This document shows, piece after piece, positions 35,674 to 36,561 of a stretch of DNA of 64,000 nt. Made by a program: the position numbers and the translations under genes. This DNA is from Bacteroidetes bacterium ADurb.Bin008 (GTDB lineage: Bacteria; Bacteroidota; Bacteroidia; Bacteroidales; Tenuifilaceae). Numbering within the stretch: the first letter of the stretch is position 1; every line of letters begins with the position of its first letter. Below the pieces are notes generated by a model, which was not told the origin of the DNA, did no database searches, and saw only the letters and a program-made list of their open reading frames with translations. The DNA lies in contig MWFE01000013.1 in assembly GCA_002071445.1 (NCBI GenBank), positions 62,001-126,000 of the forward strand, written 5' to 3'.

Positions 35674-35707
35674 TTTATCATGCCTAAATGAAAAAATGGG
35701 ATGATAT

Positions 35708-36323
35708 AAAAACAGTAAGGGAACCATCCATTGAGAATGATTCCCTTTCACGCCTGGAAACTTACGTATCCGTTTGTGCCCGATTACAGTTATTACGGCC
35801 GGCTGCATTCTCAGGTTGTGAAACCTGTTCCTGTAGCCCTTTGCCTTTCAACCGCACCAGCTAAGGTGTGGTTTTCAGACTGTCCATTGGGTTAATCCGA
35901 GGATTAACTTTTGTGGACGAAGTGTCGTTTGCGTAAAGACCGAGAATTTGTTTCTGATACTAAGCTGCCAACCCATCCTGAGCCCTTTCTTCGCAGAATT
36001 GGCATCTTTCAGCGTTTTGCGGCTTAATCTGTATCAAATCCGCATTCCGGCAAACCCTTACCTATTTCCGAGGAAATTCTGGGGGTTTCAACATTGGGCG
36101 TGGGAGCCGAAACTCTTGCTGCCCCTGCTGCTTTCGACCCAATCATTCTTAGAACGTTAGACGACCTTAGATTGACTGACCTCCTCCTGTGGCGAACTCT
36201 TGGGATTTGGACTTCGGCACCCTATGCAGGCAAATCTTGCGATTTGTTCGACCGGTTGGCAACGCACCTAAGCGACAGCTGCACGGTCCCTGTTTTCGGG
36301 AGCAACCCTTTATCTCTCATCAG
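35708..36323 (-). ncRNA. Candidate large structured non-coding RNA, about 615 nt, family not recognised
   Basis: A promoter (36330-36337) and a terminator hairpin bound an interval with no credible protein on either strand. The hairpin has arms AAGGGAA at 35747-35741 and TTCCCTT at 35723-35717, then a T-run to 35708. The minus-strand sequence is dense in helices. CAAATC-GCAA-GATTTG (36246-36231) has a GNRA loop. GTTAATC-CTCG-GATTAAC sits near 35909-35892 inside GTCCA/TGGAC, and CAGGTT-TCAC-AACCTG spans 35827-35812. ATTGGG/CCCAAT encloses CGAAA/TTTCG, and AAACCC/GGGTTT encloses ATTTC-CTCG-GAAAT. TGCGG/CCGCA (36044, 36022) interlocks with TGATAC/GTATCA (36036, 35960), a possible pseudoknot. I found no RNase P, tmRNA, SRP or group II core motifs. 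Strand and ends are inferred. Confidence 0.6.
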
Positions 36324-36329
36324 GTAGAA

Positions 36330-36337
36330 CAAATATA
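36330..36337 (-). promoter_or_regulatory. Promoter of the structured RNA unit
   Basis: TATATTTG on the minus strand, a perfect TAnnTTTG match, with TTG at 36361-36359 spaced 21 bp upstream, close to the -33 position. An AT-rich tract lies further upstream. Predicted start near 36323. Confidence 0.6.
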
Positions 36338-36561
36338 CTACACGCTCTCACGCTTTTGCAACTTTTTGGCATCGTTTTAAGTAACAGCGATTCCACATCC
36401 GTTACAAACAATTGTTAACAACTATTTTAACTTAATAATCTGTATGTTAATAAAGAAATTTCCTTAAAAAAGGGGGATGCTAACACCTGTTAATAAAGGT
36501 TGAACGCTGCTGATGTTAATTGGAAAGAACTCCACCCATCGGAGTTGCAAAATTTGCAATG
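36338..36561. other. AT-rich spacer between mqnE and the RNA unit
   Basis: About 220 bp, rich in A/T and in TTAA/TTAAC sequences. A 6-bp hairpin AACTCC/GGAGTT (36528-36546) lies just after the mqnE stop and might act as a weak terminator, but no T-tract follows. No gene seen. Confidence 0.35.

Follow-up and report, generated by a model that had tools for sequence, protein, structure and literature searches.

The window, by which we mean the whole 64,000-nt stretch of DNA analysed here, carries a noncoding RNA gene on its minus strand from about 36327 to 35703, ends that replace the 36323-35708 given in an earlier note on the same sequence. Transcription is predicted to start at about 36324-36327. 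The TAnnTTTG promoter and -33-like TTG that had been proposed on this strand are both present (Table 1), and of 116 non-redundant homologs, 109 have TAnnTTTG at a distance of 19 or 20 nt ahead of a conserved GAG. At the other end, the terminator hairpin described in the note consists of a 14-bp helix (35748-35735/35729-35717) and a T-run, with double changes at 6 of its pairs in homologs, and a separate gene lies 3' of it in the minus-strand reading of the window. The note had also held that the interval is richer in GC than its flanks and without a plausible ORF. Both claims stood: GC content is 0.486 in the RNA but only 0.346 and 0.231 in the intergenic DNA on its two sides, and the longest stop-free run, 107 codons, is unexceptional relative to shuffled sequences (p about 0.18). 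Across homologs, in which no conserved coding potential or ORF was found, stop-free runs range from 58 to 117. A protein gene was rejected on these grounds. The minimum free energy of the window RNA corresponded to a z-score of -7.6 against shuffles.

Table 1. Positions in the window of the RNA gene, its predicted structural elements and the putative DnaA boxes upstream.
Feature	Position	Strand	Support or remark
Noncoding RNA gene, about 625 nt	35703..36327	-	promoter, terminator, homologs, length class, fold z
-33 element TTG	36359-36361	-	sequence; conserved in alignment and logos
-7 promoter element TATATTTG	36330-36337	-	sequence; fixed offset in homologs
P1 5' strand CCUGAU	36319..36324	-	pairs with 35779-35784; mutual information up to 0.88 bit
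Core internal loop, 5' side GAGAGAUAAAG (family GAGVGAUAAAA)	36308..36318	-	near-invariant, 124 sequences
P2 5' strand	36303..36307	-	pairs with 35797-35801
Hairpin GCUGUCGC/GCGUUGC	36259..36279	-	double changes at 6/7 pairs
GNRA-capped hairpin CAAAUC-GCAA-GAUUUG	36231..36246	-	double changes at 5/6 pairs, 98% paired
Helix UCAGUC/GAUUGG with conserved ACGUUCU apex	36139..36179	-	98% of cells paired
AAACC/GGUUU helix and inner CTCG-loop hairpin	36052..36088	-	double changes, 3 pairs per helix
Possible pseudoknot	35955..36044	-	sequences present; one compensated change in second copy
GUCCA/UGGAC helix capped by AGUUAAUC-CUCG-GAUUAACC hairpin	35882..35918	-	hairpin: double changes at 7/8 pairs, 25 cells
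Hairpin GGCUACAGG/GAAUGCAGCC	35801..35838	-	double changes at 6/8 pairs, 29 cells
P2 3' strand	35797..35801	-	pairs with 36303-36307
Core internal loop, 3' side (family ANAAUAACNGUA)	35785..35796	-	near-invariant, 124 sequences
P1 3' strand AUCGGG	35779..35784	-	covariation with 36319-36324
3' hairpin CAC...GUG, ahead of terminator	35749..35778	-	covariation, 106 sequences
Intrinsic terminator hairpin and T-run	35708..35748	-	covariation, 96% of cells paired, 106 sequences
Exact DnaA box TTATTAACA	36488..36496	-	sequence
Exact DnaA box TTATTAACA	36445..36453	-	sequence
DnaA-box-like array at the family's fixed position	36378..36421	-	family position -102 to -104 from GAG, 81/84
Inverted pair TTGTTAACA and TTACAAACA (other strand)	36413-36421 and 36402-36410		one mismatch each
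Degenerate boxes TGTGGAATC and TGTTACTTA after inverted pair	within 36378..36421	-	

No match to Rfam 15 was obtained with the window copy at gathering score, and 20 homologous loci gave none apart from two tRNAs in one locus; a scan of the interval at E<=5 returned only one chance match of 12.6 bits. There was likewise no Rfam match to 6S RNA at the locus. The earlier note had seen no signature of RNase P or tmRNA, in agreement with which full-length matches to these two genes of the source genome were found elsewhere, on contigs C60 and C50, and a diverged RNase P or tmRNA was rejected. A search of the open-access literature, which did not extend to subscription papers or preprints, revealed no description of the RNA. 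Rfp18 of Flavobacterium (PMC9723704) was weighed as a lead, without sequence comparison.

A second copy in the same genome is 79% identical over about 550 nt and lies 10 kb from dnaA (G000:C14 28262 and 38466). Unlike this copy, the RNA gene of D. orientale shows no such proximity to dnaA. Further homologs found by BLAST belong to the same genus, the same family and, in one case, another family of the order; a 29-nt match in G032 failed to align, looks like chance and was discarded. When a covariance model of the 3' domain was run on 393 genomes from the order, 112 gave a match, in many cases at E<1e-10; a broader model matched only 5 of 392 genomes in a phylum-wide sample, which seems to have been drawn mostly from other groups. 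Separately from the 3' model, we searched for the 5' end with an exact pattern made up of the promoter and GAGVGATAAAAGG and found matches on at least 119 genome contigs, among them Draconibacterium, Tangfeifania, Perlabentimonas, Lentimicrobium, Algoriphagus, Aquiflexum, Cognataquiflexum, Mariniradius and many Bacteroidota MAGs. At nearly all of these loci the 3' domain follows downstream on the same strand. Since nearly all matches are labelled Bacteroidota, with a few labelled otherwise (e.g., Chlorobiota, a proteobacterium), the conservation in this phylum that had been raised as a possibility is supported, with copies in many of its environmental members.

In total, 137 distinct full-length homologous RNAs were collected from Bacteroidales/Marinilabiliales and Cyclobacteriaceae, and they fall into discrete length classes of about 300, 330, 430, 470-590 and 625 nt, the shortest mostly from Cyclobacteriaceae. 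Cultured relatives occur in Tenuifilaceae (Perlabentimonas) and Prolixibacteraceae (Draconibacterium). Several Cyclobacteriaceae have tandem paralogs: on contigs from this family or similar to it (L100, L117, L147, L160), two tandem copies of about 300 nt are separated by 0.8-2 kb, and both copies have a box array of their own. The RNA defines a new family, with members in Bacteroidales/Marinilabiliales and Cyclobacteriaceae. That it is a new, ornate RNA, as the earlier note had inferred, is supported by the lack of an Rfam match and of conserved coding potential, the strong covariation and the Bacteroidota homologs; the second copy, the helix closing the 5' and 3' ends, the invariant core and the upstream DnaA-box array were all missing from that account.

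When the length classes were aligned and folded separately, the same end-to-end architecture emerged, and in the four classes tested the consensus energies were 12-20 standard deviations better than those of column-shuffled alignments. The 5' and 3' ends pair to form P1 (family consensus YCARRY with RYYUGR), followed by a near-invariant internal loop, which may also be written GAGVGAUAAAA/AAUAACNGUA, and then by P2 (GGY with RYC). One P1 pair is split between A-U (61 of 124 anchored sequences) and G-C (60), with a mutual information of 0.88 bit; a second is C-G in 63, U-A in 30 and U-G in 27, and a third is G-C in 96, G-U in 15 and A-U in 12; one P2 pair is C-G in 88, U-A in 18 and U-G in 14. 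In the 3' domain (106 sequences), 92% of cells pair, and 436 cells show double changes, well above the 118 of the shuffles and the maximum of 75 reached by slid controls. In the 625-nt class, helices that show double changes are spread over the entire molecule. These counts are of sequences and not of independent events, and carry no R-scape statistics. The criterion for a structured noncoding RNA, a conserved secondary structure that covaries, is met, and the covariation that the earlier note had suggested looking for among homologs is strong.

All of the helices named in that note are literally present in the sequence, and compensatory changes support the GNRA stem, both CTCG-loop stems and AAACCC/GGGTTT. 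Two others fared less well. ATTGGG/CCCAAT competes with the better-supported UCAGUC/GAUUGG, and the proposed pseudoknot, TGCGG (first base 36044)/CCGCA (36022) with TGATAC (36036)/GTATCA (35960), rests on the thin support of a single compensated change, to TGATTC/GAATCA in the second copy. The 3' domain of all homologs (35776-35801 region) also holds a local hairpin, GYCA/UGRC. Because this hairpin excludes P1/P2 and shows some covariation itself, the end structure may switch between the two conformations.

Genes neighboring the RNA are syntenic within lineages only, and no neighbor is common across lineages. Their products, read from sequence without a family search, include alpha-L-fucosidase, enolase, UbiD, DnaG and SRAP. 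In the class of about 330 nt (L029, L038, L039, L043, L048, L052), the RNA gene adjoins an apparent primase gene, dnaG. Downstream genes occur in both orientations (64 vs. 52), and a cis-acting leader was rejected for this reason; together with the RNA's own terminator, these orientations argue for a standalone, probably trans-acting RNA gene. Neither PLSDB (blastn) nor IMG/VR (exact 5' pattern) gave a match, and with synteny being lineage-specific, a mobile, plasmid or phage element was rejected.

Upstream of the promoter, the family carries an array of the form TTATTAACA-WT-TGTTAATAAC-nnn-TGTTnATA-nnn-GTTnATA that starts 102-104 nt 5' of the conserved GAG. Its palindrome was recognisable, at no more than 5 mismatches in 21 positions, in 84 of the 116 non-redundant loci, with an offset fixed to within 1 bp in 81 of these, whereas shuffled upstream sequences reached the same threshold in only 2 of 116. 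The density of exact TTATNMACA boxes is 13.3 per kb from -110 to -55 but 0.6-0.9 per kb in the flanks, and none was found in the promoter or RNA body of the family loci. Cyclobacteriaceae have a differently arranged array with TGTGGATAA, the canonical DnaA box. Over all lineages, nearly every copy of the RNA follows a cluster of apparent DnaA sites at a fixed place. Pairs of boxes 2-3 bp apart are preferred by DnaA (PMC11317965, PMC8203912), in E. coli specifically those 2 or 3 bp apart (PMC11317965), and the boxes of the array, being 2 bp apart, match this spacing. The window copy has no exact box at the fixed position and two exact boxes 24-75 bp further upstream; because the latter lie off the family position, and because each member of its inverted pair has one mismatch, its own array is weaker and partly decayed. 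The criterion for membership of a DnaA regulon, boxes at a fixed place 5' of the promoter, is met by the family, more weakly by the window copy. We infer that the array represents putative DnaA binding sites, for which there are no direct binding data.

The GC skew of D. orientale switches at about 1.929 Mb, the site of the densest cluster of boxes within 400 kb. This cluster contains two copies of TTATTAACA, which is thus used at the likely origin, together with TTATCCACA, TTATTCACA and TTATACACA; TTATTAACA lies beside TTATCCACA. The RNA gene of this organism is at 0.422 Mb, where no skew switch was seen, and was rejected as an origin of replication there because the switch and its cluster are 1.5 Mb away. 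Allowing up to 2 mismatches, the palindrome occurs only at an RNA gene in D. orientale, D. sediminis and the source genome; in a fourth genome, one match also lies ahead of a gene whose first residues read as dnaB (G306:C8:14638, L221). A further multi-box cluster, possibly an origin, was noted at G306:C10:129423 (L214).

A discrete transcript is without direct proof, the only RNA-level evidence being chimeric-looking records of ssRNA phages. Three such records from activated sludge, belonging to three families (L175-L177: BK013657.1, positions 1-384; NC_073886.1, 1-705; NC_073784.1, 1-79), start with pieces of the source genome's two RNA loci that are 100%, 100% and 98.7% identical to them. 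When 61 kb of host DNA was tested against such records, only the two RNA loci matched, and the RNase P and tmRNA of the host had no match in ssRNA phage records; the source MAG yielded no 16S gene that could have served as a control for phage chimeras. Such records presumably derive from metatranscriptomes, and these probably arose from an abundant RNA, as chimeras of cDNA or of assembly. In two of them the junction falls at the same position of the RNA (GAGTCGGAA), a recurrence that remains unexplained. The possibility that ssRNA phages carry the RNA was set aside, the records being most likely chimeric, since one of the joined pieces also takes in the promoter and, upstream, the acylphosphatase gene.

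We consider it likely, if some way from certain, that the locus encodes a standalone, probably trans-acting large structured RNA whose promoter is controlled by DnaA, a reading made without binding or expression data. On this model, sigma-A RNA polymerase would transcribe the RNA from the TTG/TAnnTTTG promoter to the intrinsic terminator, and P1 would close the ends of the molecule around the two-sided loop and P2, with lineage-specific helices added. DnaA bound at the fixed array would most likely set transcription, so that the amount of RNA would follow DnaA-ATP and, through it, the replication cycle or the rate of growth. The RNA would then probably act in trans, and a protein or some other partner would, speculatively, most likely bind at the invariant internal loop. 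What was observed is the structure of the gene, its homology, the conserved and covarying fold, and the position and enrichment of the array, and the coincidence of the 5' pattern search and the 3' covariance model at nearly all loci speaks for the model. DnaA binding, regulation and its direction are inferred from DnaA biology (PMC8203912, PMC11317965). Against the model count the loci without a recognisable palindrome, the different arrangement of the array in Cyclobacteriaceae, the restriction of RNA-level evidence to chimeric-looking phage records, the partial decay of the array in the window and the covariation of the hairpin that competes with P1/P2.

The RNA could instead be a constitutive housekeeping molecule whose array binds another regulator or merely marks growth-coupled promoters. 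Besides the lack of DnaA binding data, the Bacteroidales box TTATTAACA differs from the E. coli consensus TTATNCACA and the window's boxes at the fixed position are degenerate; we nevertheless think this unlikely, given TTATTAACA in the D. orientale origin cluster, the TGTGGATAA arrays of Cyclobacteriaceae and the palindrome ahead of the apparent dnaB. Clusters of DnaA boxes away from oriC are known from the datA and DARS loci. That the present locus is mainly a DnaA-handling DNA site of this kind, titrating or recycling DnaA, with the RNA a passenger or acting only through its transcription, would suit a cluster of closely spaced boxes away from the origin. It would leave unexplained the strong selection on RNA sequence and fold, titration does not need phasing to a promoter within 1 bp, and there are only about 4 boxes; here too our confidence is low.

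Still less can be said for a role of the RNA in priming or controlling replication, be it at a secondary origin or in an integrated replicon. DnaA boxes do lie beside a strong transcription unit, and the source genome's second copy is close to dnaA, but the D. orientale locus lacks a skew switch, plasmid and IMG/VR matches are absent, and neighbors are stable and lineage-specific, so that we regard this as very improbable. A cis-acting leader, a mobile intron-like element or a small-protein gene has nothing in its favor beyond the intergenic position and appears scarcely tenable in view of the RNA's own terminator, the mixed orientation of downstream genes, the absence of a conserved ORF and vertical synteny within lineages.

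Like OLE, GOLLD and ROOL, the RNA is large, intricately folded and standalone, and has no protein product. It differs from them in having no Rfam match to any, in its length (about 300-630 nt) and taxa, and in being chromosomal with a DnaA-box promoter and no phage or tRNA-island linkage seen. GOLLD and ROOL have no known function (PMC12286853). The RNA shares paired ends and a size of a few hundred nucleotides with the structured 6S RNA, RNase P RNA and tmRNA but has long branched forms. Its promoter resembles those of the DnaA regulon (e.g., E. coli nrdAB and dnaA) in having several DnaA boxes nearby; the targets discussed in a review of DnaA in transcription are protein genes, and neither "sRNA" nor "non-coding" appears in its text. 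As in datA and DARS, the boxes lie off oriC, but here they keep a fixed phase to a promoter, that of a structured RNA that is conserved.

Large structured bacterial RNAs are not new as a broader idea; the novelty lies in this family of RNAs and in the link of its promoter to DnaA. Few new families of such large bacterial RNAs with intricate folds are known, and for most there is no functional lead. The promoter-phased array of DnaA boxes, together with a clean covarying core, offers a handle that such RNAs usually lack, and the RNA occurs in cultured Bacteroidota (Draconibacterium, Perlabentimonas, Algoriphagus, Aquiflexum). As a tentative proposal that we hold possible but would not yet rely on, the RNA class may be a dedicated output of DnaA, with DnaA-ATP setting its synthesis and the core loop acting in trans on replication, transcription or translation, so tying global physiology to chromosome replication in Bacteroidota. 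If DnaA does control the RNA, the machinery that initiates replication would have a noncoding RNA among its outputs, and the role of this RNA would be directly testable.
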